This document shows, piece by piece, positions 9,937-43,292 of a stretch of 64,000 bases of DNA. Both the position numbers and the translations under genes were made by a program. The stretch's first letter is position 1; each line of letters begins with the position of its first letter. The stretch covers positions 1-64,000 of IMG/VR virus record IMGVR_UViG_3300042379_000183; one strand, given 5' to 3'. The DNA is from a virus. Below the pieces are notes generated by a model. The model worked only from the letters and a program-made list of their open reading frames with translations, made no database searches and was not told the origin of the DNA.

Positions 9937-9956
9937 GGGTTAAGTTAACGGGTTGG
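9937..9956 (-). promoter_or_regulatory. Putative phage promoter element, copy 1 (upstream of SSB)
   Basis: The minus strand carries CAACCCGTTAACTTAACCC in the short gap upstream of the SSB gene. It is identical over 20 bp to 17308-17327 and differs by one base from 36905-36924. The centre GTTAA-C-TTAAC is an inverted repeat. A small hairpin (CCTC-TTC-GAGG) follows about where an mRNA 5' end would lie. The core CCCGTTAA resembles, from memory, the cyanophage Syn5 RNA polymerase promoter. Promoter function is inferred from position and conservation. Confidence 0.65.
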
Positions 9957-13355: not shown

Positions 13356-13405
13356 AAAAAAAAAATAAGAGAAAGAAAAGAAACTATCCCACGAATGGGA
13401 TAGTT
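13356..13405 (-). terminator. Strong rho-independent terminator before the RNAP operon
   Basis: On the minus strand a perfect 10-bp stem (AACTATCCCA, tetraloop TTCG, TGGGATAGTT) is followed by a pyrimidine-rich tract ending in ten T residues. It overlaps the stop codon of the 100-aa gene at 13404, separating the accessory module from the RNA polymerase/replication operon. Confidence 0.88.
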
Positions 13406-14536: not shown

Positions 14537-14566
14537 TATCATATAAGATACTCTTTTTTCCGCGTT
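14537..14566 (-). promoter_or_regulatory. 30-bp conserved element, copy A (putative promoter)
   Basis: This 30-bp stretch matches 15532-15561 at 27 of 30 positions, including AACGCGGAAA at one end and GTATCTTATATGATA at the other (minus strand). Both copies lie in gaps upstream of small genes. TATGAT could serve as a -10 box, but no good -35 is seen. TATC and GATA flank a 6-bp AT spacer as an inverted repeat. It may be a phage-specific promoter or operator. Confidence 0.55.
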
Positions 14567-15531: not shown

Positions 15532-15561
15532 TATCATATAAGATACCATTATTTCCGCGTT
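15532..15561 (-). promoter_or_regulatory. 30-bp conserved element, copy B (putative promoter)
   Basis: 27 of 30 bases are identical with 14537-14566. It lies directly behind a terminator (15573-15595) and upstream of the small-gene cluster 15496-14953, which is where a promoter would be expected. The motif is unlike the 20-bp element at 9937, 17308 and 36905, so a different polymerase or sigma factor may read it. Confidence 0.58.
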
Positions 15562-15572
15562 TTATTTTGATT

Positions 15573-15595
15573 AAAAACCCCACTCATTGGTGGGG
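15573..15595 (-). terminator. Rho-independent terminator after the lysis module
   Basis: On the minus strand CCCCAC, a short loop and GTGGGG form a 6-bp GC-rich stem followed by TTTTT. It follows the 48-aa membrane protein gene that ends at 15610 and closes the lysis transcription unit. Confidence 0.85.
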
Positions 15596-15609
15596 CAAAT
15601 AAAAACATT

Positions 15610-17203: not shown

Positions 17204-17328
17204 ATGATTCTCCTAACAAATTGATACTTACTTTAGTTAATTTTATTATTCTCAACTGGACTAGGACTAACATAATTAGAAAAGGGATATAATAGGGGGA
17301 CGTCGTAGGGTTAAGTTAACGGGTTGGT
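17204..17328 (-). other. Leader region of the lysis operon
   Basis: This stretch has no convincing gene. It holds the promoter-like element (17308-17327) and an AT-rich leader before the 81-aa gene. On the minus strand CCCCCTATTATATCCC lies about 15 bp after the element. I see no terminator. Confidence 0.5.
17308..17327 (-). promoter_or_regulatory. Putative phage promoter element, copy 2 (upstream of lysis genes)
   Basis: All 20 bp are identical to 9937-9956 (CAACCCGTTAACTTAACCC plus one C). The copy lies in the gap between the acetyltransferase-like gene and the lysis operon and points the same way as these genes. Conservation in non-coding DNA at three module boundaries supports a promoter. 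Confidence 0.68.
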
Positions 17329-24117: not shown

Positions 24118-24725
24118 AGTCGTTCAATCAGCTTAATTGTACCCATATCCATTAAGACACCATCTGTATATGACATTCCTGATATGGCATCAGTATCATA
24201 CATACAATTCATTATTACATCATCTCTAAATGATACAACAATCGAAGTTATCGAAACTCTTAATGTTGGAAATATGTTTAATGGATATGCAGTTCCTGTA
24301 CTAGTTGGAATACAATCGCTAGTAACCATATACACTTTATTGTGATTTGCAAACTTAATAAAAGTGCCTTTACTAATTTTACCAACCATTCCAGTTAAAG
24401 AAAGTTGAGAAGCACTAACTGAACCTGTAACTAAACCACTTCCAGCTGTTAAAATTGTAGTTCTCTTAGAGCCATTATTCTGAGGCACTATAATTGTAAC
24501 TGTTTCTGAATACCCTTTTGTCACTAAATTAACAAATAGATCTTGTGCATCATAAGCGAGAGGTTCCAAATTTGTTGTAATCTCCCATCTCTGTGCTGCA
24601 CGTTTAGATACTTGTCTTTTTAATGAAAGGGTATCTGAAACGAAAATTGGCTGATTGCTTTTGATTGTAAGCGGAGTTACAAACTGAGCAATCACCTTTC
24701 CATTTTCATAGATACCATATGCCAT
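24114..24725 (-). CDS. Minor tail (distal tail) protein, 203 aa
   Basis: The gene lies directly behind the tape measure gene (TAATG overlap) where distal tail or minor tail proteins lie in long-tailed phages. The sequence is beta-rich with LKRQVSKRAAQRWEITTNLE in the first third and RVSITSIVVSFRDDVIMNCM near the end. This fits a lambda gpM-like or HK97-type minor tail protein. The assignment rests mostly on position and general look. Confidence 0.65.
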   Translation of the reverse strand: MAYGIYENGKVIAQFVTPLTIKSNQPIFVSDTLSLKRQVSKRAAQRWEITTNLEPLAYDAQDLFVNLVTKGYSETVTIIVPQNNGSKRTTILTAGSGLVTGSVSASQLSLTGMVGKISKGTFIKFANHNKVYMVTSDCIPTSTGTAYPLNIFPTLRVSITSIVVSFRDDVIMNCMYDTDAISGMSYTDGVLMDMGTIKLIERL

Positions 24726-27700
24726 TATCTTCTATAGCCTTTCTCACGATTATGTGAATTGACACCTTCAGCAATTGAAGGCAACATTTGATAAATCTCA
24801 GATCTTGTTTGACGACTAATATCGCCAGTAATATTTACATTAATTACTTGATTAGATGTGCTATTCATATTATCTGCAGCACTGATATTTGCCATTGCTG
24901 GCGTACTTAAGACTGCTGTTGCTAAACCACCTGCTGCAAACTTCTTAATGTTACTAGAGTTGATTGCAGATAATAAGCCTAAGTTAGCTTTTGCTGCTTT
25001 TGCATTAATAACAAATTCGCCATTGGAAAGCATTGCAGGAATAGAATCAGATGTACTTGTTCCCATTCCTCTGACATAACCTCCAGTTGCCATTGGTATC
25101 ATACCCGCTCCAGCGAGAGCAGCAGGACTCATTGCTGCAGCTCCTCCGCCAAACAGAAAACCAAGTCCTGGGATATTACTACCCATTGAACTAAGACCAC
25201 TAAAAATAGTTTTAAAGACACTACCTATTGCATCTGTAAATGTACTAAATAATCCTTTAAAGTCAATAGTCTTAAATGCTCCAGTAAACTTACCCCAAAG
25301 TCCAGCAACAGTAGTATCTACCGTAGCTGGCGAAATTGAATCAACGTCTCCTGACGGCAAAGGTGCACCTTCTGGATTAGTTGGACTTCCAAGGATTTTA
25401 CTTCCAGTATCATAGATACTAGTACCTAATCCACCTATGTATTTTGTAATTGCTCCATTCTTTCCAGTTAATGGATCCATTAAGCCTTTTACAAAGGTAT
25501 CAATAATACTTGAGGTAAACGTATCTAGAACACCCTTTAAAACACCTTCAAGAGATACCGCTTTACCTTTTAACAAATTAGAAAGACCATTTGAAATACC
25601 AGAACTTAATGAAGTGGCAAGCTCATCACCTGCAATCATTCCTTTTGTTTTATAATCTAATGCTTTAGTTTTAAAGATATCACTAATTGCAACACCAAAC
25701 TGATCAACTTCATGTTGAAGTCTGATTCTTGTAGCTTCTGCAGTCTGTGGTGTAATCTTTCGAGACTTGATTTCGTTAACGTAAGATTCAATAACAAGTC
25801 TTTCAGCATCTGTCAATAAATTGTAAATATTCTTTTCAACAGAAACTCCAACATTAGAAAGATCTATTTTAAACGATTCGAAACCACCAACAGCTTTTCC
25901 AAAAGATTCGGTCAGTAGTTTATTAATTTTGTCAATAGTTTTCTTTAATTGTAGCTGTGCTAATGTTCGAAATTCTTCAGGCATGTCTGGCGTTTCAGTT
26001 ACCTTCTTTGCATCTTGAGCAGCATCTAAATAAGATTTTAAGATAGCTCTACTTGCTTCATCTAGAAAATTATAAACATCTTCTGAAATATTAATTTGAA
26101 GTTTTTCAAACTCTGTTTTTATATTTGCAAATGGCACTCGAATGTTTGCAATACTACTTCTTGCAAGTCCTTGCGCAGCAACTCGATCAGCTTCAACCTT
26201 TTGTCTTCCTTCTAAGGCTGCCACTCTTTGAGTTGGAGGACCTTCTAAAGTACCAAGAACTTTCGTCTCAGCTTCTTCAGTCCTTTTTTCAATCGCTTTT
26301 GCGTTAGCAAAGATATTTTCTCTTACTTCATCTGAAATTTTAAGGAGTTCTTTTGCAGTTAAACCTAAGTCTGGAAATACTTTATTGATAAGAGAAAGTT
26401 GATCTTTTAATTTAAGAACAGTAGGTTTTTCTTCTGGAGGAGGCGTGATAAATGTATCTGGGACCTTTGCAATCTTTGATTGAGCTAAAATAGAAGCAAG
26501 TTCTTTATAAACATCTTGAGCCGTATCACGATTTATTGTGCGCACTAAATCACCTAATACAGAACTCTGTCCTCGTTTAGGATCCATTGCAGCATTTGCT
26601 TTATCAATCAATTCACCAATTTTTAGAATTTGAGCCGGACTCTGTTTTGAAAGTTCATTAAGAGCTTTATTATCAATGTCTTTAAAGCCGACTTTTTCTA
26701 ATTCAGTTCCAACACGTCTAAGACTATCTCCTAAGTTTTTACTATTTACTAGCAATGATCTAATACCAGGGACTTCAGTTTCAGTGGTTTTTGGAGTAGG
26801 TGCAGTTAAAGATTTAAAGGGCGACATTGCTTTAAAAGTCTTAAACAATTCATCAAATTTATCTTTTAAATTCTTAAAAAACTCGTTTGTTTGAGTATTA
26901 ATTCCACTAGAAACATTGGCTTCAGGAGGTACAATATCAAATGCTTTTACACTGGTTTGCGTACCAGTAGCAAATTGTTTAACACCCATACCACTATTAA
27001 TAGCAGTTAATAGTCCCCAATTCTTTTGAGCGTCTTTAGCATTAACAACAAATTCGCCATTAGATAACATTGCGGGAATGGAATCGGATGTACCAGAGCC
27101 TGAACCTGCTACTCCTCCAGTTGCCATCTTAGTAGATGAAAACAAGGACTTTACAAATGTTCGAAGCTGATCACCCAATCCACCTAAAAATTCAAAAACT
27201 TGCTCTTGAAGATTAGTAAGAGGGGGTGCATAGTCTACAGATTCATTTTTATTAGGATTAGGAACAGTATAAGAATTAGGTTTATCCGTTTTAAATTTTT
27301 CAAAACCTGAAACATTTGCTTTTGCTAGTTCTTTATAAAAGGCATTTTTGATTTTATCATTTTCTGAAGTCTGAACATCTTTAAATTTTAACGCATGATT
27401 ATCGGCATTTGCTAGCGTCTTATTACCTACACGAACTACACCCTTACCATTCCATCGACCACTTGAAAATATATCTTTAAGTGTCGGCAAATTTGCTTCT
27501 GCTTGTTTTAAAAAAGCTCTAAAAACATAGTTAGCTCCAAAACCGCCTGCAGTCACATTAATGTTGTTTAAATTTGGATTATCAGATTCACTGAATTGAG
27601 TAGCCCGATTGATTCCACTAGACATTTGGTCTTCATTGTCTTTTAAAAAATTAGAAAGCTCAGTTGAAGTTTTAAATGATGTTTTTAAATATGTATTGAT

Positions 27701-30700
27701 AATACTAAGTGCGCTCTTATTCATGTCATTATAGCGCTGATTCTTATTATCTTTGCCAACGCGATAAAGAAGGGTATTTGTACCAAAATCAGACCTATTC
27801 TCAACTAAAGAATTAAAGAATAAAGCATCAATATCTTCCTTTGATAATTTAAAGCCTAAGTCTTGCGCATTCTTTATACCATTTGCTAGATCAGGAAGAT
27901 TTGTATTATATAATAACTCTGGAGCATACTTACCAGTTGCTGTTTTCTTACTTCTGAAAAATTGATTATCGTATTTAAGAAGATCTGTACCCTTAGCAAA
28001 ACCTTGTATTCCTCTACCGCTATTGATAGCAGTTAAAATATCCCAATTATTCTTTGCATCTTTAGCATTTACTACAAACTCACCATTAGACAGCATAGCA
28101 GGAATAGAGTCTGATGTACCAGAACCTGCTCCAAAGATACCACCACCTGTTGCTTTTCCAGCTGGTGCATTTCCATCACTAGTTGGAATTTGTGCTTGTA
28201 TATTTTTAATTGCATCAGCAACTACTTTTTTATCAGTTCCAAAAATAGCATCACCAATCCATTTTAAAATATTATAAACAAGAGCACCCACACCGGCGCC
28301 GAAGGCGATAGCCCCAGGCCCCTTACTCATACCATATGCCATTGCAATTTTTAATTGCTCTATAACTATCTGCCCTACTCCCGAAAGAGGTCCAGTAGAG
28401 CTTAAGCTTGTTTTAATATTATTCGCACCAGCAGCTAATGAATCTTTTAATAAACTAAAACTCATAGACAAACCAGAAAGATTAGACGCGTATACCTTTC
28501 TAATGTTTGTAGCTATAGTATTAAAAAGACCATACTTTTCACCCACCGCTACGAATGCAGCGGCAGCAGCAGCGGCTGACAAAGTGCCTTGTACGACTTC
28601 TCTCGTAGACATTGTACCACCACCGTCAGGTGACTTAGGTTTATCAAGATTTAATTTAGATTTAATCTCTGCCCAAATTGAACTTAATTTATCTGTTAGT
28701 CCTTGAAGAATTGGTGTAATATATTCAGACCAAAATGATTTAAAACTAGCAAAAACTGAAACTAATACATCCCAATTTAAGGCTACAGCAAGTATTGCAC
28801 CAAGTAAGGCAATTGCTGCTAAAACAGGACTTGCAATAATTGCTCCAATACCTGCTATTGCTAAACTGAATGCAGCTGCAATACCAGTACCAATCAAACC
28901 TACAGCACCTATTAATGCTGAGGCAAGGATACTACCAATACCTGCACCAACTGCTTGCCCAACAAAAGAGATAGCCATTGCCACACCGACTCTTGCCCAG
29001 TCAGTTAGTCCAGTCATTCCTTTTGCTATTTCAGTACCTAGTTGGAAGCCTGCAACAGCGCCTAGCAAACCACCTGCACCTGCACCAGCAAATTTAACAC
29101 CTTCCTTAAGGGCTGCCCTTTGCTCTGAAAGGGCTTCAGTAATTCTAGTAGAGGCCGCTTGTGATGCAAGCAAAGACGCTTGTAATGGCGCCAATGTAGT
29201 GTTAAGTCTAGCAAGATCAGCTCTACTACCTTGTAATGCTGTTTGATTCCTGATAGCTTCAACAAGTTGTCTTTGAACTGCACCTGTGCCTAAAGCGGAA
29301 GTATCACCAACTCGAATTGCGTCTCTTGCTGCTCTATTTGTAATAATATTACCAGCAGCATCTCTTTGACCTACAATACTATTTAGACTATCATTAAATG
29401 CTCTTCTATTACTTTCTAGAACCGTATTTAATTGTCTAGGTGCTTCTGCTAACTTTGCGGTAGACTTAGCAATATCGCGATTTAATAAGTTTCTTTCTAA
29501 TATAGATGTTACGGTTGTTGCAGCTCTTGTAGGTGCTGTTGCAATTCCAAGTGCAGCTCTTCCAATTAATTCTCGACCTGCCGCAAACAGTAATGATGTC
29601 TTAGCAATGATAGCTAAAAATCCAAATGGATCTTTTAAAACATTACCACCAAATAAAGCTGTAATCCCCTTTTTTACAATAGATACAAAACCAAATGCAG
29701 CTTTTGCAAAGAACTCAGACCGTTCGCTTGCAGCAACAGTGCTAGTTGCAAAAATTCCAGCAAGTGTAGTTGCAACACTTAATAGAGCAGTTCTAGCAAT
29801 TCCTGACTGTGTTCCCGCAACTATAGCAAGACCAACGGCAGTTGTTAATGCTACAATAATAGGCATTTGCCAACCAGGTGGAAATGCATTAAGAATATCG
29901 TGACCAGGAGTTCGATTTGGATCAGATCTAAATGGGCCACGTCCTACCTGCGCAGTTGCTCTAGTATCAATAGTTTGACCAAACATTTGTCCTGGGTTGC
30001 TATCATTAATACCAAAGATTTGTTTTAATGTTCTACCAATACCTGACGTAGCAAATGATTCAGATGTTGATTTAAATGTACTGTTTATCGCCTTTCCAAC
30101 TTTAGATTTATCAAAAGATTCTTTTGTATCTTTTCCAAGTTTCTTTAACCAATCAATAGAACTCGAAAGCAATTGATTCGTTCTTGCTGCAATAGTAATA
30201 TTAGGAGAGCCACCTGTTTGATCGTCTGTTCCTATCTTGAGTTTACCATTCTTGAATAAAGCAAACCCAGTAAGAATAGCCGCAATAGTAGTGAGTACAC
30301 CTAATAAACCCAATAAAGAAGATTTGTATTTATTAATTGCAGCAATACCAGCAAGAAAAGGACCAACAAACTTAATTTTTGAAAAAGCACTATTTGAGGA
30401 CGTTGCAAACTTAGAAATTGATTCGGTTGGACCTTTTGCAAGCTTTGCTGTCCAGCTGATAACTCCTGTGATAAGATCAGGAATCCAAGAACGTCCAATA
30501 ACTTTATCATAGAGCCAGAAAAACCATTGTTCCGCTTTCATTGCCCATGATTTTAAAACATCAAGTGAAGCTTTAAGGCCTAAGAAGACTGTATTGACAT
30601 CAATTGTTGGTAATTGATTTCTTAATTTATTAAAACTAGTTACAATAAACTGAACAAACGTATCTAATATTGGTTTCCAACTCTTCAGTGTCTCTCCAAA

Positions 30701-31765
30701 ATGAGAGAAAATCTTTGAAAAATCTAACTCAGACAGTTTCTTAATTAATAAAATAAAACCAGCACTTACAACTGCTAAAAAGTTTTCTATTACTGGTTGT
30801 AATGAATCTTTTAACTTAAGAGCAATAGCACCTATTTTGGTATTAGTAAGATCTAGCGTTTTCCAAAACTCACTAAAGCCTATAATAACATCTGTTATAA
30901 ATAATAAAACAGATAACTTAGCACTAAGTAATGAGACTTTAAAGTTTGTTGCAAAGTTAAATATACCATCAGCTAACTTATTAATTACAGTAGCTAAAGA
31001 ACCAGTAGCTCCAAAGAATCCTTTTTTAACTTCATCAAATAAAATAACTATGGAGGTACCTAGATTTCTAAAGGCTTGACCATATGTTATTTGAACTTTT
31101 GTAAAGTTTGTATCAATCTCACTTTGTTGCTTTAAGATTGCTTTAAAAACTTTATCAGAAGTTAATGTACCTTGCTCGCCTAATGCTCTTAATTTTCCAA
31201 TAGAAACACCAAGGCCTTTAGCGATTTGCTCAGCTAAAACGGGTGCATTTTCTAAAACAGATCTTAATTCGTCACCAGCAAGTTTGCCAGATGAAAGTGC
31301 TTGACCTAACTGCTGAATTGCAGCATTTGCCTCTTGTGCACCAGAGCCAGACATTGCAATTGATTTGCTAACAAGGCTTGTTACACGTGCAACTGAAGCT
31401 TGTGAAGCACCAAAGGCGGTACTGGATCTTGCTAACCTACTATACAGTGAAGCAACAGATTCTAAGTCACCTCTAGTTGCATTAGCAGTAGATCTTACTG
31501 CATTTAATGCAAATCTGAATTCATCTTGACCTCGTGTAACTAATCTTATCTTTGTTTCAATATCAGTAAGCGTATCAGCTAACTTTGTATATGATGCAAT
31601 TGCAGCAGTACCTGCAAGACCTATTGAAATCAATCTAGTAAAATTAGCAAATTTCGTAGAAACGTTCTCTACACTATCTTGAATACTATTAACTGATGTT
31701 CTTAATTTGGCAAGGTCTGCTCTCGCCTCTTCAGAATCAGATATAGTTTTTAGAACTATAGCCAT
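24725..31765 (-). CDS. Tail tape measure protein, 2346 aa
   Basis: It sets tail length and may help channel DNA into the cell. Residues about 1-230 match the lambda H-type N-terminal tape measure domain (AANAAIQQLGQALSSGKLAG then DELRSVLENAPVLAEQIAKG). Long hydrophobic stretches occur in the centre (around 28.8-29.1 kb). A Gly-rich block GSGTSDSIPAMLSNGEFVVN occurs three times (about 28.02-28.17, 26.96-27.12 and 24.93-25.08 kb). Between copies 1 and 2 an inserted domain begins near ALFFNSLVENRSDFGTNTLL. If the usual relation of about 1.5 angstrom per residue holds, the tail would be several hundred nanometres long. A terminator lies just upstream of its start. Confidence 0.93.
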   Translation of the reverse strand: MAIVLKTISDSEEARADLAKLRTSVNSIQDSVENVSTKFANFTRLISIGLAGTAAIASYTKLADTLTDIETKIRLVTRGQDEFRFALNAVRSTANATRGDLESVASLYSRLARSSTAFGASQASVARVTSLVSKSIAMSGSGAQEANAAIQQLGQALSSGKLAGDELRSVLENAPVLAEQIAKGLGVSIGKLRALGEQGTLTSDKVFKAILKQQSEIDTNFTKVQITYGQAFRNLGTSIVILFDEVKKGFFGATGSLATVINKLADGIFNFATNFKVSLLSAKLSVLLFITDVIIGFSEFWKTLDLTNTKIGAIALKLKDSLQPVIENFLAVVSAGFILLIKKLSELDFSKIFSHFGETLKSWKPILDTFVQFIVTSFNKLRNQLPTIDVNTVFLGLKASLDVLKSWAMKAEQWFFWLYDKVIGRSWIPDLITGVISWTAKLAKGPTESISKFATSSNSAFSKIKFVGPFLAGIAAINKYKSSLLGLLGVLTTIAAILTGFALFKNGKLKIGTDDQTGGSPNITIAARTNQLLSSSIDWLKKLGKDTKESFDKSKVGKAINSTFKSTSESFATSGIGRTLKQIFGINDSNPGQMFGQTIDTRATAQVGRGPFRSDPNRTPGHDILNAFPPGWQMPIIVALTTAVGLAIVAGTQSGIARTALLSVATTLAGIFATSTVAASERSEFFAKAAFGFVSIVKKGITALFGGNVLKDPFGFLAIIAKTSLLFAAGRELIGRAALGIATAPTRAATTVTSILERNLLNRDIAKSTAKLAEAPRQLNTVLESNRRAFNDSLNSIVGQRDAAGNIITNRAARDAIRVGDTSALGTGAVQRQLVEAIRNQTALQGSRADLARLNTTLAPLQASLLASQAASTRITEALSEQRAALKEGVKFAGAGAGGLLGAVAGFQLGTEIAKGMTGLTDWARVGVAMAISFVGQAVGAGIGSILASALIGAVGLIGTGIAAAFSLAIAGIGAIIASPVLAAIALLGAILAVALNWDVLVSVFASFKSFWSEYITPILQGLTDKLSSIWAEIKSKLNLDKPKSPDGGGTMSTREVVQGTLSAAAAAAAFVAVGEKYGLFNTIATNIRKVYASNLSGLSMSFSLLKDSLAAGANNIKTSLSSTGPLSGVGQIVIEQLKIAMAYGMSKGPGAIAFGAGVGALVYNILKWIGDAIFGTDKKVVADAIKNIQAQIPTSDGNAPAGKATGGGIFGAGSGTSDSIPAMLSNGEFVVNAKDAKNNWDILTAINSGRGIQGFAKGTDLLKYDNQFFRSKKTATGKYAPELLYNTNLPDLANGIKNAQDLGFKLSKEDIDALFFNSLVENRSDFGTNTLLYRVGKDNKNQRYNDMNKSALSIINTYLKTSFKTSTELSNFLKDNEDQMSSGINRATQFSESDNPNLNNINVTAGGFGANYVFRAFLKQAEANLPTLKDIFSSGRWNGKGVVRVGNKTLANADNHALKFKDVQTSENDKIKNAFYKELAKANVSGFEKFKTDKPNSYTVPNPNKNESVDYAPPLTNLQEQVFEFLGGLGDQLRTFVKSLFSSTKMATGGVAGSGSGTSDSIPAMLSNGEFVVNAKDAQKNWGLLTAINSGMGVKQFATGTQTSVKAFDIVPPEANVSSGINTQTNEFFKNLKDKFDELFKTFKAMSPFKSLTAPTPKTTETEVPGIRSLLVNSKNLGDSLRRVGTELEKVGFKDIDNKALNELSKQSPAQILKIGELIDKANAAMDPKRGQSSVLGDLVRTINRDTAQDVYKELASILAQSKIAKVPDTFITPPPEEKPTVLKLKDQLSLINKVFPDLGLTAKELLKISDEVRENIFANAKAIEKRTEEAETKVLGTLEGPPTQRVAALEGRQKVEADRVAAQGLARSSIANIRVPFANIKTEFEKLQINISEDVYNFLDEASRAILKSYLDAAQDAKKVTETPDMPEEFRTLAQLQLKKTIDKINKLLTESFGKAVGGFESFKIDLSNVGVSVEKNIYNLLTDAERLVIESYVNEIKSRKITPQTAEATRIRLQHEVDQFGVAISDIFKTKALDYKTKGMIAGDELATSLSSGISNGLSNLLKGKAVSLEGVLKGVLDTFTSSIIDTFVKGLMDPLTGKNGAITKYIGGLGTSIYDTGSKILGSPTNPEGAPLPSGDVDSISPATVDTTVAGLWGKFTGAFKTIDFKGLFSTFTDAIGSVFKTIFSGLSSMGSNIPGLGFLFGGGAAAMSPAALAGAGMIPMATGGYVRGMGTSTSDSIPAMLSNGEFVINAKAAKANLGLLSAINSSNIKKFAAGGLATAVLSTPAMANISAADNMNSTSNQVINVNITGDISRQTRSEIYQMLPSIAEGVNSHNREKGYRR

Positions 31766-34955: not shown

Positions 34956-36143
34956 TTAAGAGTGGAAAACCGGGAGAATACCAAGAGTCAATGCCGATTG
35001 TGTTTTGCGAATCCATGTTCCAGTTGTGGAAGCTAGGGTACCGGACACAACATCAGTCAGCGCAAGTGGAGTAGAGCCTTCAATCGCATAGCCATAAGAA
35101 GCATTAGACGGGAACGCGCTATCCAAACCGGCCCAATTGTAGCCAGCCGGGTGAAGCACATAGCCCCAACGATTCCACACAGCAGTAGTACCACCACCTT
35201 TATAGGCAGCAGCCGAGCGCTGAATTTCAACATTTTCAGGGATTGTCAGCGATTCCATTGCAAGAGCACCAGGCAACACAAGGAACGAGGTCTTTGTACC
35301 AACAACATCAACACCAGCACCAGTATTGATTTTAGTCAATTCAGCGGTGCTAAAACCCTGAGAGGCACGAGTTTGAATCAAACGGAATTTACCATTAAAG
35401 ATGGTGCTGAAATTAACGTTACCATCAGCAATTGTAGTCGAATCAACTAAATTAGCAGAACGGAAAGAGGCTAATGTTTCAGGACTGCAAACCAGATAAG
35501 CATAATCAGGCTCATAATCTTTAAATGCCATACCGAATGCACGAAGGAAACCTTCAGCACGAGCAGCACCTTGGACAGCAGCAGTAGCATCAATAACAGG
35601 CTTTGCGGCACCCAAGTCAACATAAAAGCCATAACGCTTGTTGGTAGGATCATTATCAAATGTCTGACCACCAAGGCCAACAGCACCAGAGGCAGCTGCA
35701 GCGCCATTCAGCGTCTCAGAAAGAGCAACACCACGAAGCACGGCAAGAATAGCGTTATGCTCGTCTTGCGCACGGGTTTCACCAAAGTCACGACCAATTT
35801 TAGCAAGACCATCAACTTGAGTAACCACTTGCTGCAGATTAACTTTAGTAGCGCCATGAGTGCGAACACTCTTAACGTACGTCATGTAATCCGAAGCGTA
35901 TGTAGTACCAGTACCATCAGTCGAATCAGTAAGCGAAGCAATGTTGATGGTAGGGGTCAAAGGCTTGTACCAGCGCATTTGACCGATAAATGTTTCGGTA
36001 TTAACATCAATCAGGGGATTAGCACCAACAATACCAGTACCCGATAACTTTCTTGCATTTGTATATGCTTCGTCAGAGTAAGCGCTAATGCTCTCTTGTA
36101 AGACAAAGTTATCTGCGCCAGCAAGATTTGTTTTCACAGTCAT
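34956..36143 (-). CDS. Major capsid protein, 395 aa
   Basis: The protein follows a scaffold gene and precedes connector genes. It contains a typical HK97-fold length and an E-loop-like region (DVNTETFIGQMRWYKPLTPT), then KINLQQVV-like helical parts (GATKVNLQQVVTQVDGLAKI), and a large A-domain-like segment (EPDYAYLVCSPETLASFRSA). The coding region has markedly higher G+C and regular codon use, as expected for the most abundant virion protein. A promoter-like element lies upstream of the scaffold-capsid pair. Confidence 0.9.
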   Translation of the reverse strand: MTVKTNLAGADNFVLQESISAYSDEAYTNARKLSGTGIVGANPLIDVNTETFIGQMRWYKPLTPTINIASLTDSTDGTGTTYASDYMTYVKSVRTHGATKVNLQQVVTQVDGLAKIGRDFGETRAQDEHNAILAVLRGVALSETLNGAAAASGAVGLGGQTFDNDPTNKRYGFYVDLGAAKPVIDATAAVQGAARAEGFLRAFGMAFKDYEPDYAYLVCSPETLASFRSANLVDSTTIADGNVNFSTIFNGKFRLIQTRASQGFSTAELTKINTGAGVDVVGTKTSFLVLPGALAMESLTIPENVEIQRSAAAYKGGGTTAVWNRWGYVLHPAGYNWAGLDSAFPSNASYGYAIEGSTPLALTDVVSGTLASTTGTWIRKTQSALTLGILPVFHS

Positions 36144-36154
36144 TTTAATTCCTT

Positions 36155-36820
36155 TTATCGTCTATTAGTAGGAAGTTTACCTTCCCGAGCCATTTTCATA
36201 ACATCTTCTTGTGACATTGAAAAGAGTGATTTCTTTTCTGTACTCGAAGTATTTGTAGTTCCTACAGATGTGCTACCACTGCCATTAGAAGCCTTAGGCT
36301 TTAACAGAAATGAATTAGATTCATTATCTGTAAATTGCTTCACAAAATCCCTTAATGGAATTCCAGATTTATGGAGCCAGACACCTTGTTCATTTCTGAC
36401 AAGTTGCGTTACAATTTCACGATAGGCCATATCAGAAGCACTATCATTCCTAAATGTGTACGCCTGGAGAGCATTACGCAGTTCTAGATCTCGTGTGAGT
36501 TCAATAGTACGCGTTTCTAATGCTTCTCTTTTTGCTCTTTCTTCTGCAAGTTGCAATTCTAAAGCTTCTTTGTGCTTTCCTTCGTCTTGAAGCCTTTTTA
36601 ATTCAGCTTCCTTACGAACTTGATCCATCTCAGCAACCTTACGAAGAGCATCATCACGTCCCTTATAGGCTTTATCAAGGTTTTCCTTCATATTGCCAAT
36701 AGCTTCTGCAACCTTTTCTCTTACAAGCTTCTGAACGGGATCTTCAGTTTGTTGTGAATCTTGACCCTTATTTTCAGTGTCTTCGATAACAACATTGGTA
36801 CTAGTAACATCATCTGACAT
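36155..36820 (-). CDS. Scaffolding protein, 221 aa
   Basis: The protein is acidic at the start, then has a long coiled coil (about residues 30-115; KEALELQLAEERAKREALET), then a globular end (FLLKPKASNGSGSTSVG and EDVMKMAREGKLPTNRR). This is the usual layout of capsid scaffolds of the DUF4355/Gp20-like type, and it lies directly before the capsid gene. It should direct shell assembly and leave or be degraded before packaging. Confidence 0.85.
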   Translation of the reverse strand: MSDDVTSTNVVIEDTENKGQDSQQTEDPVQKLVREKVAEAIGNMKENLDKAYKGRDDALRKVAEMDQVRKEAELKRLQDEGKHKEALELQLAEERAKREALETRTIELTRDLELRNALQAYTFRNDSASDMAYREIVTQLVRNEQGVWLHKSGIPLRDFVKQFTDNESNSFLLKPKASNGSGSTSVGTTNTSSTEKKSLFSMSQEDVMKMAREGKLPTNRR

Positions 36821-36904: not shown

Positions 36905-36924
36905 GGGTTAATTTAACGGGTTGG
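36905..36924 (-). promoter_or_regulatory. Putative phage promoter element, copy 3 (upstream of scaffold-capsid)
   Basis: CAACCCGTTAAATTAACCC on the minus strand differs by one base, in the centre of the inverted repeat, from the copies at 9937 and 17308. It lies one base after the MuF-RNA polymerase stop codon and about 85 bp before the scaffold start. This position fits a late promoter driving capsid and tail genes. Confidence 0.68.
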
Positions 36925-36925
36925 C

Positions 36926-39900
36926 TTAACCAACACCATACCAACTAAAATCAGTCACAAACCCTGGAGGAACCTTTTTTAAAATATCTTCCTTCTTTAA
37001 GATATCAGATTCTTTAAGAAGTTTTCCACCAACACGAGACCTACCAGGAACTGGAATAAGTCCAATATCAATAGCTTCATTTAGATATTTATCATATAAT
37101 GCAGGAGGGAGTCCTCTTGCTTTCATCTCATTTAAGGTCATTAAGATAACATTGTTATTTAACATTTCAGCATAGATTTCTCTTAGTGCTTGTCTTGCTG
37201 GTAACATGTCCGTTGCATTTGCAAAGAAAGCATCATGGATTGTAGAAGTAGGTACCTTATTCTTTTTACCCCATAAATGAAATTGTTTAACAATAACAGC
37301 ATCATTAGAATGATTACCATTAACAGCAAAAGCAGTTCTTGCCTTACCTGAGTCTGCAATATCATTTATCTTACCAGACTTATTAATAACTTGTTGCCAC
37401 CAAGTAGCCTCTGTCTTTTGTGGGATTTGAAGAATGTTAGTAGTCCAATTTCCATCTTTATCTCTATACGTTAATCGCTCTTCAAATGTTTGGGTAAAAT
37501 TCTGTTCAATTGTCTTTCCATCAAAATTTACCCAAGGAATATTTGTCCAGCTTTTTGGTAGTTTATTAGCATAAAAGATTTCTAATTCATTTAGATTTTT
37601 AACTTCTAATAAATCAACTTTTAAGTACTTTCCACCAGTACGTCTTGTCTCTGCTGCTTTAACTCCATATATAATATCACTGAGCGTTCCATTTGGTTCC
37701 CAAAAGCCAAAACGCTTTAATATCTTTTCACTAACAGCTTCATTAGCTTTTAAACCTAAAAGACGACTAACTGAATCAGGTAAAACATAACCTTTTTTCT
37801 TTTGACCTAACAAAGAGATCTTAGCAATTGTCTTCCAATCAAAATCACTATCAGAAGGTTTTGCGTTAATGATAAAATCTTCTGCAAGCCTGCCAAAATA
37901 CTTAGTGAAATCTTTCAAGATAGGAACTTGCTCACTTAAGTACTCACTCATTATCTTTGCAATATTTTTAAAGTCCTCTGGTGTAACAATTTTATCATAT
38001 GACCTAGTCATCTTCTCAACTAAGTCTCTAGTTGCTGGATCTAAGAAATATAATTGTTCCATTATGTCATCACCAGGATCAAGACCCTTATTAAAAATAT
38101 CTTTTACATTTTCTCTGAGAACTCTTAATTCATTTGCAGTATCCATATCAAACTTCTCAAATCGTGCTATTCTAGCAGAGATTTCGTTTAATACAATCTC
38201 TCTATCAGATGCTTTTACAACTAAGACATTTTCATCTTTACCTAAGATTTTAGAAAGCTTTCCTTCTACATTCAATGCACCTGTTCTTTCACCGGCACCA
38301 TAGAAGGTTACCATATTCTGTGCTTTAGCAGCCTTCCTTAAATCTTTTTCAGATAAGCCTAACTTTTCATTTAACTTTCTAAATCTAATATCATTAAATG
38401 TTGAGCTAGCAATTTCGTCATATAGTCTTTTCTTTTGGGAAGTAGGGACTACATTACTTAGTTCTGCAAGTTGTTTATTCTTAGTCGTTAATGCAATAAT
38501 TTGTGCACCAGAAGAAGAAGCATCTTGCTCTAACGCTAATGCGATTTCATAGTCTTTTAACTTTAACAAGTTCTTAGCAGTATAACTACCTTCTAAATAA
38601 TTATCTATCTTTGCTATCTCTAAAGCAAATCGTAGAAATTTATTTAACTCTTCACCATCTACTTTAGAAAAAATCTCTGAATCTAAAATAGCACGTAAGT
38701 CTGCTGGTTTCTTACGAAGCATATTATTGCCAAGTTTAACCAGCTCTGGTCGCCATTTTACTGCAATTTTTTGTCTACCTGTAACAGTTAGTGAATTAAA
38801 CTTACCTTCAAAATGATCGCTTAATCCACCTAAGAATGCACCAACTTGATCTTGTAAGTTACCGAAGTCATCAACACTAAACTTTTTAATTTCAGCTGTA
38901 TTTAAAAATGGTCTGAATGTCTCGCCTGATTGAGGACTAATAAGACCTCTATCATAAATTCTCGCTCTATGATCGATAAAAGGATGGTTACTAAAGGCAG
39001 TATCATCTTTACGTAACCACTCCATTGCTTTGAATCGTTCATAGGCATCACCGCGATTTGCAATATATTTTCTATATTCATTCAAATCATTATACTTCTT
39101 TGCTTGACCTCTATCATCTTCAAAGTACAGCAATTTTTGTGTGAAATCAAAATAGTCTTTATCTATTCGATACTTAGTTTTTGAAGCCCAATTTAATGCA
39201 TCTATTAAATTCTTATCAACAAACTCTTCTGGAAAATCGCTAAAGCTAGAAGTAGAGGTAATTGGAATACGAGTATCCTCATAACCAAAGATACCTTGAT
39301 CAATAAAATATGTTTTATAACCTTCTCTAAAGACTAATTTATTTTTATCTTCTGTTACACTAACTCTTAATCCAACTTCAACTTTACGAGTGAGTTTAGA
39401 GTATTCCTGAATTCTAGGATCGGTAACACGGATATTATAAGATAATGTATCGTAGTATGGACCAAAGTAACTATTACTCAAACGACTCTTCATTCTTCTT
39501 TTCTGCACACCAAAAGTCTCTACTTCAAAGAACTTACTCACATTCTTTGCTTCTAATAGCTTAGAGCCTAATTCATACCAGGTACGACGATATCCATTTA
39601 CATTTGCTAAGTTATACAAGTCACGACCGAGAGCTACTGCAAATTGATCTCTATCTGGTGTATCTGCTAAACTAAGACGATGTGCAAATCTTAAATAGAA
39701 CTGTTGTAAATCTCTATCTGAAATTCTACTACTTATCAGTAATGGAATTTTTCTATCAAAGACATTTCTAAGTTCTAACGCTATCTTTGGTGCAACAGTA
39801 TCTTCCCATTTATTCTTAGCAAGAATATTAGGAATGAAGTTATCATGTAAGTCTTGTAACTGAGTGGGACCAAGAACTGGATCTAAGTAACTATCTTGTA

Positions 39901-41554
39901 ATAGCTTCTTTAAAAAATCAGAATTCTTTCTAATTTGTGTTTCAATTGAATCAGAAACGTTCATGATATCGAACTTGATTTGACTCTGAACAACAGCTTT
40001 AAAATTAGTCCAAATCTCTTTATTATCTCGGTATCTACCAAAAATAATTCTTAAATTATCAGCAACAACAGCTTGCTCATTAACACTCATTTTATCTGCT
40101 AACGTATTAATAACAGAGTTAATAAATGTTTTGTCATCTTCTAATAACTTATCACTAGTTTCAATAAGTCTTAAATTATTAGTTAACACACTAGGATTAG
40201 GTTGATAAAGTCTTACATCTTCATATCTAGAAGTAATTGGATTAAACTTAAGCTGATCCTCTCTAGGTGGATTTGCTAATACTCTATTCTTTACACCTCT
40301 CTTTACATTTAGTAAGGTGCCTCTATAATTTGTTAAAGAAAGTGTACCATCTAACTCACCAGATTGCAGAAGATAATAATCAATTAATGTTTGTTTTAAT
40401 TTAGAATTAGAAATAAAATCATCAGGAGTAGATGCACCTAGTTGCATAGCATCTAACTTCTCTTTTGCTTTTGCAAATTTACGTGTATCGTTTGGTAATG
40501 TATAACTACTATCAGACAATGTACGTAATTCTTTAATACCAATTGAATTACCTTCTGGATTTGTAAATCTATCTAAAGTTAGTTGACCTGAGTTAAATAA
40601 TTCAACTTTCTGATAATCACCAAGATGTCTAATTTTTACATCTTGTGGTTGTCGTAATAGCCAAGTGTTATACGACTCTCTCATTGGCGTTAGGCCATCA
40701 TAAAACTGAATTTCAGCGTCAGATAATCCTTTTAAGTTTCTACGTCTAACTTGTGATACACCTTCTAATTTACCAATATCTTCCCATGATTTAAAAACAG
40801 GAACTGTAGTAGATCTACAATGAAAGTGTGCAGGAGGTAAATGTACTGTGTCAGTTGTTGGATAAATCGTTCCATCTCTATGTGCGCATAAGGAAGTTGT
40901 TCTTGAATCTAGGACTGCAACATATTGCCAACCGGTTAAGGCTTTCTCATTTGCTTTATAGATTGCTTGATCTGTTTGAGCCGTTACCGATGTAATTGCA
41001 GTAATGACAAGTGCTTTAGACTGAGTTCTACTGATATTATAAATATTAGTTTTTCTTACCTCTAAAGCAATTTCATCAACTGTCATTCCAGTAGCAATAC
41101 CACGTCTGATTGTGGCATCAATACGTTTCTTTTCATTAATACTTACGCTAGCCCAACCAGCAGCTAATGTTTTGTTTTCAAATAAAGGCTGATTAAGAAC
41201 TACATCTTCAGCAATACGTACTGGAGGTCTTTCTGCCTTCCAGATCTTTCCCATTGATGTTTCAATAGTTTGATAGGTAAAAGAAAGTTGATCAGAAACT
41301 AAATCTAATAAAGATCTCTTTGATGTGTTAAAGGTTTCTTTAAATGTAGCTTGTAGCTCTTGATCAACTGCTTCTCTAAGTGTCTCAAAGCCCTTTTGAG
41401 ATGCCGTAGCATTTTTAATAAGTTTATCTAATCGGACTTCATGGCCATCCAATACTAACGATATCTTACTATTTACACGACGCTCATAAAGCCGAATCAT
41501 TGCGGCACGATCAAGAGTCCTATCGTAAATTTTGGTATTAGCATTGGATAGCAT
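36926..41554 (-). CDS. MuF head protein fused to N4/T7-type RNA polymerase, 1542 aa (putative virion RNA polymerase)
   Basis: Residues about 140-270 are a MuF minor head domain (LDSRTTSLCAHRDGT with Asp216, Cys223; PPAHFHCRST with Pro240, His243, Cys246, Arg247). The C-terminal half has the single-subunit RNA polymerase motifs: D-H-R-A-R at 861-865; motif A EQDASSSGAQ with Asp1011; motif B RKAAKAQNMVTFYGAG with Arg1073, Lys1077, Tyr1085; His1415 in GNHSND; and motif C STIHDAFF with His1456-equivalent 1440 and Asp1441. Motif B to C is about 364 residues, long as in N4 virion polymerase rather than T7. The middle third is unassigned. The ATG at 41554 is preferred to an upstream GTG at 41602, which lies inside the 49-aa gene. 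Portal is encoded just upstream and scaffold downstream. It should be packaged near the portal and injected; this is inferred. Confidence 0.88.
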   Translation of the reverse strand: MLSNANTKIYDRTLDRAAMIRLYERRVNSKISLVLDGHEVRLDKLIKNATASQKGFETLREAVDQELQATFKETFNTSKRSLLDLVSDQLSFTYQTIETSMGKIWKAERPPVRIAEDVVLNQPLFENKTLAAGWASVSINEKKRIDATIRRGIATGMTVDEIALEVRKTNIYNISRTQSKALVITAITSVTAQTDQAIYKANEKALTGWQYVAVLDSRTTSLCAHRDGTIYPTTDTVHLPPAHFHCRSTTVPVFKSWEDIGKLEGVSQVRRRNLKGLSDAEIQFYDGLTPMRESYNTWLLRQPQDVKIRHLGDYQKVELFNSGQLTLDRFTNPEGNSIGIKELRTLSDSSYTLPNDTRKFAKAKEKLDAMQLGASTPDDFISNSKLKQTLIDYYLLQSGELDGTLSLTNYRGTLLNVKRGVKNRVLANPPREDQLKFNPITSRYEDVRLYQPNPSVLTNNLRLIETSDKLLEDDKTFINSVINTLADKMSVNEQAVVADNLRIIFGRYRDNKEIWTNFKAVVQSQIKFDIMNVSDSIETQIRKNSDFLKKLLQDSYLDPVLGPTQLQDLHDNFIPNILAKNKWEDTVAPKIALELRNVFDRKIPLLISSRISDRDLQQFYLRFAHRLSLADTPDRDQFAVALGRDLYNLANVNGYRRTWYELGSKLLEAKNVSKFFEVETFGVQKRRMKSRLSNSYFGPYYDTLSYNIRVTDPRIQEYSKLTRKVEVGLRVSVTEDKNKLVFREGYKTYFIDQGIFGYEDTRIPITSTSSFSDFPEEFVDKNLIDALNWASKTKYRIDKDYFDFTQKLLYFEDDRGQAKKYNDLNEYRKYIANRGDAYERFKAMEWLRKDDTAFSNHPFIDHRARIYDRGLISPQSGETFRPFLNTAEIKKFSVDDFGNLQDQVGAFLGGLSDHFEGKFNSLTVTGRQKIAVKWRPELVKLGNNMLRKKPADLRAILDSEIFSKVDGEELNKFLRFALEIAKIDNYLEGSYTAKNLLKLKDYEIALALEQDASSSGAQIIALTTKNKQLAELSNVVPTSQKKRLYDEIASSTFNDIRFRKLNEKLGLSEKDLRKAAKAQNMVTFYGAGERTGALNVEGKLSKILGKDENVLVVKASDREIVLNEISARIARFEKFDMDTANELRVLRENVKDIFNKGLDPGDDIMEQLYFLDPATRDLVEKMTRSYDKIVTPEDFKNIAKIMSEYLSEQVPILKDFTKYFGRLAEDFIINAKPSDSDFDWKTIAKISLLGQKKKGYVLPDSVSRLLGLKANEAVSEKILKRFGFWEPNGTLSDIIYGVKAAETRRTGGKYLKVDLLEVKNLNELEIFYANKLPKSWTNIPWVNFDGKTIEQNFTQTFEERLTYRDKDGNWTTNILQIPQKTEATWWQQVINKSGKINDIADSGKARTAFAVNGNHSNDAVIVKQFHLWGKKNKVPTSTIHDAFFANATDMLPARQALREIYAEMLNNNVILMTLNEMKARGLPPALYDKYLNEAIDIGLIPVPGRSRVGGKLLKESDILKKEDILKKVPPGFVTDFSWYGVG

Positions 41555-41555
41555 G

Positions 41556-41705
41556 TTACGCCTTTGATTGTTTAACTTTCTTCTTTGCTTCTTTAGCAAC
41601 ACTTAATGCAATAGCCACAGCTTGCTTTTGTGGTTTTCCCGATTTCATTTCTTTGCCAATATTAGAAGAAACTGTTTTTGGCGAGTATCCCTTTTTTAAT
41701 GGCAT
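41556..41705 (-). CDS. Small basic phage protein, 49 aa
   Basis: A frame with an AAGGA site before the ATG encodes MPLKKGYSPKTVSSNIGKEM followed by a Lys-, Ala- and Gln-rich helix (GKPQKQAVAIALSVAKEAKK). This matches a widespread very short phage protein family (PLKKG....I..NI...M.SGKP.KQAVAIAL..A). The role is unknown. Location between portal and MuF genes suggests a head or DNA-associated role. Its stop lies two bases before the MuF-polymerase ATG. Confidence 0.78.
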   Translation of the reverse strand: MPLKKGYSPKTVSSNIGKEMKSGKPQKQAVAIALSVAKEAKKKVKQSKA

Positions 41706-41717
41706 TTAATTTCCTTA

Positions 41718-43292
41718 TTAAACTTGCTGATCTTGTAGTTGTTTAGCATATTGATCTGAACCGTTTGCTGTCATTGCAGCTGCAGCATCTTCGGTTATTT
41801 CAACTTTACCACTCTCATCATCATAGTCAGGAGGTAAGATATCATTTTGCTTAAGAATCATTAACCAAACAGATCTAGGGATTAATCCTTGTTGATACCA
41901 TTCAGTTGTAAGTCTTAACCAATCCGCACCTAATGGCGTAGGATTGAAGTCAGCAGAAAGACTAAATTTAACATCATAGACTTTTAATTCTGTATTATAT
42001 CTCCAGTTAATCATAAATGCAATAACTTGAGCTAAGATAGCACTAACTTTAGTATTAAGAGTACCTAACTGAGCTGTTTGTGCAGCATTCCTAATTTCTA
42101 AAGCAACACCAGACTGAGCAGTTTCAGGTGTTAGCATCCTGATACCTAACTTAGCCATCTCTTCAATAGTTGCTGCAATGGCTCTATCCATATCCTGAAG
42201 AGCTGCTGTAGGTGTTTCTAATACTTTAGCATCATCACCTTGACGTAACCTAATCCAAGTACCTAAACCAGAATCAACAATATTCTGAAAGTCATCATCT
42301 GACATATCAGAGATAATAACAGGTGTATAGGTAGATGCACCATATAATAAATGGTTCCTTCTACTTAGCTTATTGTAAAGGCTTAATTCCTTATCAATAA
42401 TCGGTGATAGCATTGGTTCTACTGCATCAATACTACCATTCAAAGGCCAAGCAGGAATCATGGTAAGACGTTCACCATTTGCAAGAATATTAGTTAAAGT
42501 TTCAACTAATTCAAAATGTGCTTTATTTTGACTAGGTTGTTTAATCTGTTGTCCTGCAATAATAGGAACATTTGTTACGCTATCAAGTCTTTGAAAGATT
42601 CTAATTTGATATTGATTTGATTCATCTAGTTCATGAACCCAAACAGTATCTTTAAATGTAGGATGAAACTCATTCTGATTATATTCTTCTTTATAACCAC
42701 GAACAATAACTCTATCTAAGATTGTTTTACCATACTCATTATCTCTTACTCTCCAATTTACAATAGTTTCTGCCTTATGTAAAATAGGGTAAGGCTTAAA
42801 AAGTAACTTTTCCGAAGTAGTCAGTGTCTCTGGATTAGCTACAGAAGGATAATCCACAAACACCCAAGCACGACTTGTTTGTACTTCTTCCCAAAGAGCA
42901 GCATCTAAAAAAGATGACATGGAACTATCATCTCTTCCAAATTCATTCATGATCCAATCATAAGCTTCTTGGGGAGCTGAATCTGGTAATTCAAGGATAG
43001 GCTTTTTACGTAATAGACCACCAACAATCATTTTAGAAAACTGTGCAGTAATACCCGGTAACTCTGCTTCTGCTTTATAAAAATTATATTGCTGTTGAGA
43101 CATACTGGGCGAGAAAGGAATCAATAGATTGCTAAAACTAATTGTATCAACAATACCATCAAAGTCCTTTACAAAACGCTCCCCACTACACACAGCCCTA
43201 CTTTTGTTCCAAAGGGGTTTCAATGATTCATACGACGCATTTGGGTCTGCAACTGTCTTAACTGCAGCTTGGGCAGCGTTTACTACGGCCAT
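41718..43292 (-). CDS. Portal protein (DUF4055-like), 524 aa
   Basis: The portal ring is the DNA entry and exit channel of the head. The sequence fits the DUF4055 portal family: SYESLKPLWNKSRAVCSGER near the start, then SFSNLLIPFSPSMSQQQYNF and GITAQFSKMIVGGLLRKKPI. It continues with ALEIRNAAQTAQLGTLNTKV and WYQQGLIPRSVWLMILKQND near the end. The Gln-rich tail follows. It lies between small virion genes and the MuF gene, as usual for a portal. Confidence 0.88.
   Translation of the reverse strand: MAVVNAAQAAVKTVADPNASYESLKPLWNKSRAVCSGERFVKDFDGIVDTISFSNLLIPFSPSMSQQQYNFYKAEAELPGITAQFSKMIVGGLLRKKPILELPDSAPQEAYDWIMNEFGRDDSSMSSFLDAALWEEVQTSRAWVFVDYPSVANPETLTTSEKLLFKPYPILHKAETIVNWRVRDNEYGKTILDRVIVRGYKEEYNQNEFHPTFKDTVWVHELDESNQYQIRIFQRLDSVTNVPIIAGQQIKQPSQNKAHFELVETLTNILANGERLTMIPAWPLNGSIDAVEPMLSPIIDKELSLYNKLSRRNHLLYGASTYTPVIISDMSDDDFQNIVDSGLGTWIRLRQGDDAKVLETPTAALQDMDRAIAATIEEMAKLGIRMLTPETAQSGVALEIRNAAQTAQLGTLNTKVSAILAQVIAFMINWRYNTELKVYDVKFSLSADFNPTPLGADWLRLTTEWYQQGLIPRSVWLMILKQNDILPPDYDDESGKVEITEDAAAAMTANGSDQYAKQLQDQQV

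Follow-up and report, generated by a model that had tools for sequence, protein, structure and literature searches.

In a stretch of viral DNA of 64,000 nucleotides (hereafter, the window), taken from a linear IMG/VR contig of 65,375 bases, we found one uninterrupted open reading frame on the minus strand (36926-41554, 1542 aa) that joins an N-terminal MuF domain, of the kind found in portal-associated minor head proteins, to a complete single-subunit RNA polymerase. We consider it probable (roughly 0.7) that this protein, MuF-RNAP, is a virion RNA polymerase that enters the cell with the DNA and fires a promoter-like motif (m2), and that a second, free RNA polymerase then acts on another motif (m1). 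The original prediction, made from the letters of the window, was of a MuF protein fused to a complete single-subunit RNA polymerase and a candidate virion enzyme of a new type. That reading is supported by the protein families matched, by the conservation of 59 sequences and by two structure models, as well as by the synteny with portal and capsid genes, by a second RNA polymerase in the same genomes and by a clade-specific promoter-like motif of the early region. Hundreds of uncultured lytic phages bear a MuF domain fused to an intact T7-type RNA polymerase, and each virion probably brings its own polymerase. To our knowledge, only a few groups are known to have virion RNA polymerases (N4-like, phiKZ-like and crAss-like phages and P23-45).

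The fusion gene and its genomic context

The fusion gene, like all other genes and motifs of the window located below, lies on the minus strand. It may start at the ATG at 41554, from which residues are numbered here, or at an in-frame GTG at 41602 (1558 aa); the former is the likelier start, since a small ORF terminates just 5' of it. The MuF domain (40805-41125) was identified by Pfam (PF04233, Phage_Mu_F, E=2.8e-13) and PHROG (head morphogenesis, E=2.7e-60; the PHROG 241 match spans 40508-41566), and the polymerase by Pfam (PF00940, RNA_pol, E=2.5e-12) and PHROG (RNA polymerase, E=3.2e-20), so that both domain matches are far beyond chance. Just 5' of the fusion, with a single small ORF in between, lies the portal gene (41718-43292; PHROG 145, E=7.6e-55), and downstream are those for the scaffold protein (36155-36820; PHROG 206, E=3e-8) and the major head protein (34956-36143; PHROG 247, E=1.9e-20). 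This position between portal and scaffold/capsid is the usual site of a MuF gene, and the order portal, MuF-RNAP, scaffold and capsid is preserved in EBPR siphovirus 1 and in roseophage DSS3_VP1. A tape measure protein of 2346 aa (24725-31765; Pfam TMP_3, E=4.3e-53) indicates a long-tailed virion. As a minor observation, the G+C content reaches up to 0.44-0.46 between 44000 and 52000, over glycine-rich and lectin-like tail genes, the flanks having 0.34-0.37 and 0.38-0.40.

The window carries replication genes of the T7 kind (primase/helicase, DNA polymerase, exonuclease and ssDNA-binding protein) and encodes a second, free T7-like RNA polymerase of 756 aa (10876-13146; PHROG 414, E=4.5e-110; Pfam, E=5.6e-63; phmmer to T7 RNAP, E=6.9e-45). 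A free RNAP is also encoded in 16 of the 18 fusion-bearing records, DSS3_VP1 included, the two others being a partial record and a linear contig. When bacterial and archaeal genomes were scanned (84,980 species, one genome each), the family appeared in two contigs of one metagenome-assembled bin only, one of them of 74 kb and phage-like, so that this is probably a family of lytic phages; such near-absence speaks against a prophage or host origin of the fusion. A 74-kb phage contig of the MuF-RNAP clade (JAOUJT010000001.1) sits in a gammaproteobacterial MAG, which may reflect contamination or be a hint of the host.

Two promoter-like motifs and the proposed infection programme

The intergenic regions of the MuF-RNAP genomes yielded two unrelated, conserved and promoter-like motifs, m1 (ACCCGTTAAMTTAACCC) and m2 (GCGsAAAAnnnnGTATCTTATATGA). 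In the window, m1 was found at three sites, against 0.03 expected: 5' of the ssDNA-binding protein and replication genes (9937-9955), 5' of the lysis region (17308-17326) and 2 nt past the MuF-RNAP stop, 5' of scaffold and capsid (36905-36923). Fifteen genomes contained 53 forward and 2 reverse sites, while a Markov-shuffled set gave 1, and most of these genomes have an m1 that starts no more than a dozen bases from the MuF-RNAP stop and precedes scaffold and capsid. The m1 core resembles the promoter of the Syn5 RNAP (ATTGGGCACCCGTAA; PMC3950665), which fits the free RNAP as the reader of m1. In two genomes (G002 and G003) m1 was altered (ACCCGTTAAATTAATGA-like) or absent and m2 was kept, suggesting that the two motif classes evolve separately. 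DSS3_VP1 presents a different repeat, AGGtTACGTTAAAGAGGGG (at 1085, 5332, 6160, 17954, 17989, 18078 and 28148), with a resemblance to SP6-type promoters; it is likely the promoter of the free RNAP of that phage, distinct from the m1 of the window clade.

The m2 sites, which we regard as candidate early promoters, are located in the window at 14537-14564 and at 15532-15559, the latter just past a terminator-like hairpin (15577-15596). We found 42 of them in 15 genomes (4 expected), 40 in the transcription sense, mainly 5' of the early genes and the free RNAP and, in nearly all genomes with this region, at a distance of 1-6 kb 5' of the gene for the free RNAP. This part of the genome, in which m2 sits, should be the first to be transcribed. 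In a protein-blind scan of 2.9 million viral contigs, the exact 25-mer was present in 101 stretches; among the source contigs of at least 40 kb (n=26), MuF-RNAP was encoded in 21, the free RNAP in 25 and at least one of the two in all 26, which makes m2 a property of the MuF-RNAP clade. Further relatives gave 11 matches to the m2 pattern versus 1 for a reversed-pattern control. The motif was not found in the partial record of EBPR siphovirus 1, and an m2-like 25-mer occurs twice in DSS3_VP1 against 0.7 expected, a suggestive result only.

A stem of at least 6 bp was present directly 3' of m2 in 10 of 39 sites (1.05 expected). Since such stems are enriched yet limited to a minority of the sites, they are more suggestive of hairpins at the 5' ends of mRNAs than of a hairpin that the promoter requires, and an obligatory one is improbable, most sites being devoid of it. 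Several genomes, including that of the window (13382-13405), have a terminator-like hairpin that often bears a TTCG loop. It is located some 200-400 nt 5' of the free RNAP gene; as it stands between the early genes and that gene, transcripts from m2 would need to read through it. An Rfam search of the window gave no match. Early promoters of the sigma-70 kind were also considered and rejected, since sigma-70-like sites showed no enrichment in the early region (39 versus 36 expected).

We propose the following programme. From MuF homology alone we infer that MuF-RNAP is present in virions; by analogy, a few copies would be packaged and would reach the cell along with the DNA. On infection, MuF-RNAP would exit the head together with the DNA, passing the tail tube probably in an unfolded state, and refold in the cell, where it would transcribe the early genes from m2 without waiting for the host RNA polymerase. 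The last gene of the early region is that of the free T7-like RNAP, whose product would be made from that region and would then take over, transcribing the replication, lysis and capsid modules from m1. Here we infer the packaging, ejection and catalytic activity of the protein, the promoter nature of m1 and m2, and the pairing of each enzyme with its motif. With a confidence only a little above even, we extend this to a large, overlooked clade of lytic long-tailed phages in which a T7-type RNAP anchored to the portal by MuF would fire m2 independently of the host RNA polymerase, perhaps during genome entry, and hand over to a second T7-type RNAP with its own promoter class; this programme of two polymerases would have arisen independently of N4 and P23-45.

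It is possible, although considerably less probable than the programme above, that MuF-RNAP is a virion RNA polymerase and m2 is read by another enzyme, either the free RNAP or the RNA polymerase of the host, equipped with an unusual sigma. In that case the virion enzyme would serve genome entry or other, so far unrecognised, start sites. One enzyme could read both m1 and m2, because the RNAP of KP34 is known to recognise promoters of two unrelated classes (PMC6834552). Moreover, among the few m2 sites that lie elsewhere in the genomes, some adjoin m1 (G004, G005, G008 and G001), and the m2-like repeat of DSS3_VP1 contains TATAAT. The variation of the likely specificity hairpin of the RNAPs does not follow the m2 variant of G009; as this loop co-variation is uninformative, m2 is assigned to MuF-RNAP by its position only. 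On the other hand, m2 has no match to sigma-70 promoters, more than 15 of its positions are conserved among phages whose RNAPs are divergent, and the region in which it lies needs a transcriber that is present at injection, before the free RNAP exists, all of which speaks against this alternative.

We think it unlikely that the fusion is a late product at work in the producing cell, in late or packaging-coupled transcription at the portal, rather than in the next host. The location of the gene within the structural module presumably implies late expression, but by then the free RNAP is already available for the late genes, m1 precedes the capsid genes, and the MuF extensions known so far are viewed as effectors that are delivered (PMC5512222).

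Conservation and fold of the polymerase

The residues highlighted in the original prediction were all confirmed at their positions, namely LDSRTTSLC (215) and PPAHFHC (240) in the MuF domain and DHRAR (861), DASSSG (1011), H1415 and H1440-D1441 in the polymerase. The D-x-R-A-R motif (861-865; 38960-38974) is the counterpart of the DxxGR of T7 RNAP, and is followed by motif A, DASSSGAQ, with the catalytic Asp1011 (38501-38524), by motif B, R1073-x3-K1077-x7-Y1085-G (RKAAKAQNMVTFYG, residues 1073-1086; 38297-38338), by NGNHSND with His1415, corresponding to T7 His784 (37301-37321), and by motif C, His1440-Asp1441 (37232-37237). In an alignment to T7 RNAP, the motifs are colinear.

A search of viral contigs with the window protein yielded 29 relatives, and a search with the family alignment 588 confirmed stretches, 80 of which were retained. 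As to whether other MuF-RNAP fusions exist, we counted 59 distinct full-length ones (IMG/VR loci plus DSS3_VP1), and these were used to assess conservation. D861, R863, R865, D1011, K1077, Y1085, H1415, H1440 and D1441 were kept in all 59, at identities down to 31%, and R1073 was present in 56; the MuF region displayed its D/PP/CR signature in 59 of 59, and PF00940 matched 52 of 52 RNAP cores. The fourth position of D-x-R-A-R was Ala in 53 fusions, Gly in four and Val in two, the D, R and R being invariant. Accordingly, the Ala in place of the Gly of D-x-R-G-R that had been pointed out in the window is real, although it is the norm of the family and not a diverged oddity of one phage. That the catalytic residues are invariant even at 31% identity points to an active enzyme.

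A first structure model (residues 364-1542) reached a pLDDT of 73.9 and a pTM of 0.70, and a model of the polymerase core (36929-39385) built on a 52-sequence alignment reached 86.8 and 0.84, respectively. In a Foldseek search of the PDB with the core model, T7 and mitochondrial RNAPs ranked on top (probability 1.00, E about 1e-15), with TM-scores of about 0.5 that point to a distant kinship. The palm/fingers fold expected from the comparison with T7 was therefore recovered, and MuF-RNAP is predicted by these models to have the full fold of a single-subunit RNAP. At the sequence level, the family profile matched T7 RNAP among PDB entries (E=1.6e-4), and a PDB sequence search with the single window protein gave no convincing match.

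The long distance between motifs B and C had been taken as an N4-like trait. In profile comparisons (hhalign), however, the probability was 80 versus T7 and 0.4 versus the N4 virion RNAP, and in a fold search of a viral library the best match was a protein of 1463 aa, as long as the DSS3_VP1 fusion, followed by T7-like RNAPs, with the N4 virion RNAPs lower. These results place MuF-RNAP nearer to the T7-like and mitochondrial RNAPs and argue against a kinship with N4, so that the long spacing does not reflect an N4 ancestry. Neither did we find a double-psi beta-barrel (two-barrel) core, the sequence and fold matches being all to the T7/mitochondrial superfamily. With the latter, MuF-RNAP shares the catalytic motifs and the predicted fold; it differs from these enzymes by an identity of only about 12-14%, a long insert between motif B and His1415, the N-terminal MuF domain and linker and, in most members, D-x-R-A-R instead of D-x-R-G-R.

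C-terminal effector domains are frequent in MuF proteins, and the polymerase domain could be conceived as a relic or as a non-catalytic effector borne by MuF, like the toxin domains of the polymorphic MuF proteins. This is very improbable given the nine motif residues that are invariant in 59 of 59 fusions and the complete single-subunit RNAP fold of the predicted model. An assembly or annotation artefact joining two genes is refuted by the 59 distinct fusions, which come from independent samples and include the isolate genome of DSS3_VP1.

The RNAP half is interrupted in six relatives (L021, L025, L026, L028, L029 and L030) at two exact places, residue 880/881, just past D-x-R-A-R, and about residue 1082, inside motif B. 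Rfam identified group I introns at or near these sites in L021, L025, L026 and L028, motif B being a point of group I intron insertion in the relatives. Selfish elements usually settle in essential, conserved codons, and insertions at the catalytic motifs thus fit an important gene. One of these relatives also carries an in-frame, intein-like insert of about 340 aa (CYLEDTEI...GSN/C; L026, 5974-9648) that splits the MuF signature PPAHWH/CR before the conserved Cys. The free RNAPs of two genomes (G006 and G015) show an in-frame insertion, possibly an intein, at the same residue 531, with open frames of 926 and 994 aa.

Comparison with known systems

The N4 virion RNAP (gp50, Schitoviridae) and MuF-RNAP both belong to the single-subunit superfamily, both coexist with a second phage RNAP and both act in early transcription, a role that is proposed in the case of MuF-RNAP. 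In contrast, the N4 enzyme has 3500 aa, uses promoter hairpins and matches the MuF-RNAP fold more weakly than the T7-like enzymes do, whereas here the polymerase is borne by a minor head protein, and the motif m2 is linear, with a hairpin following it in part of the sites only. In the analysis of Iyer and colleagues, N4-like virion RNAP modules turned up only in N4-like phages or prophages (PMC5512222). In Thermus phage P23-45, gp96 is a virion RNAP of the two-barrel kind fused to the tape measure (PMC10770324). That phage resembles the MuF-RNAP phages in that a structural protein carries its virion RNAP, in having a further RNAP that is not in the virion and in the presence of two different promoter motifs (PMC10770324), which here are candidate motifs; it differs in that its RNAPs belong to the two-barrel type and the virion one is borne by the tape measure of the tail, in place of a T7-type enzyme on the head protein MuF. 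With respect to the MuF proteins that carry effectors (SPP1 gp7, Mu gpF, VIP2 and other fusions), MuF-RNAP is similar in the location of MuF just past the portal gene and in the C-terminal extension, and differs in that its passenger is a transcription enzyme.

In keeping with the original prediction, which knew of no described MuF-RNAP fusion, a targeted search of open-access papers found none; the description of DSS3_VP1 (Rihtman 2021) falls outside that scope and may mention one. The main text of a survey covering 1515 MuF proteins makes no mention of RNA polymerase (PMC5576092). The parts are of known kinds, and it is their combination and the genome-wide programme that appear to be new.

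If our reading is correct, a T7-type enzyme anchored by MuF would represent a separate origin of virion RNA polymerases, a portal-bound minor head protein would be able to deliver a whole transcription machine, and there would be an explanation for how lytic phages, hundreds of them uncultured, could begin without the host RNA polymerase. Two candidate promoter motifs are at hand, with the isolate relative DSS3_VP1 as a test system, and these phages could supply RNA synthesis with new polymerases of the T7 type that use distinct promoters.

Annotated phages with the same fusion are EBPR siphovirus 1 and the roseophages DSS3_VP1 and DSS3_PM1 (28-60% identity); their records label it as 'head protein' or 'minor head protein-like' and do not name the polymerase domain. 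The two roseophages and EBPR siphovirus 1 (gp47-gp49) share with the window both the fusion and the gene order, and DSS3_VP1 also the second RNAP. Unlike that of the window, the fusion gene of EBPR siphovirus 1 is split at motif B by an insertion with an HNH gene.
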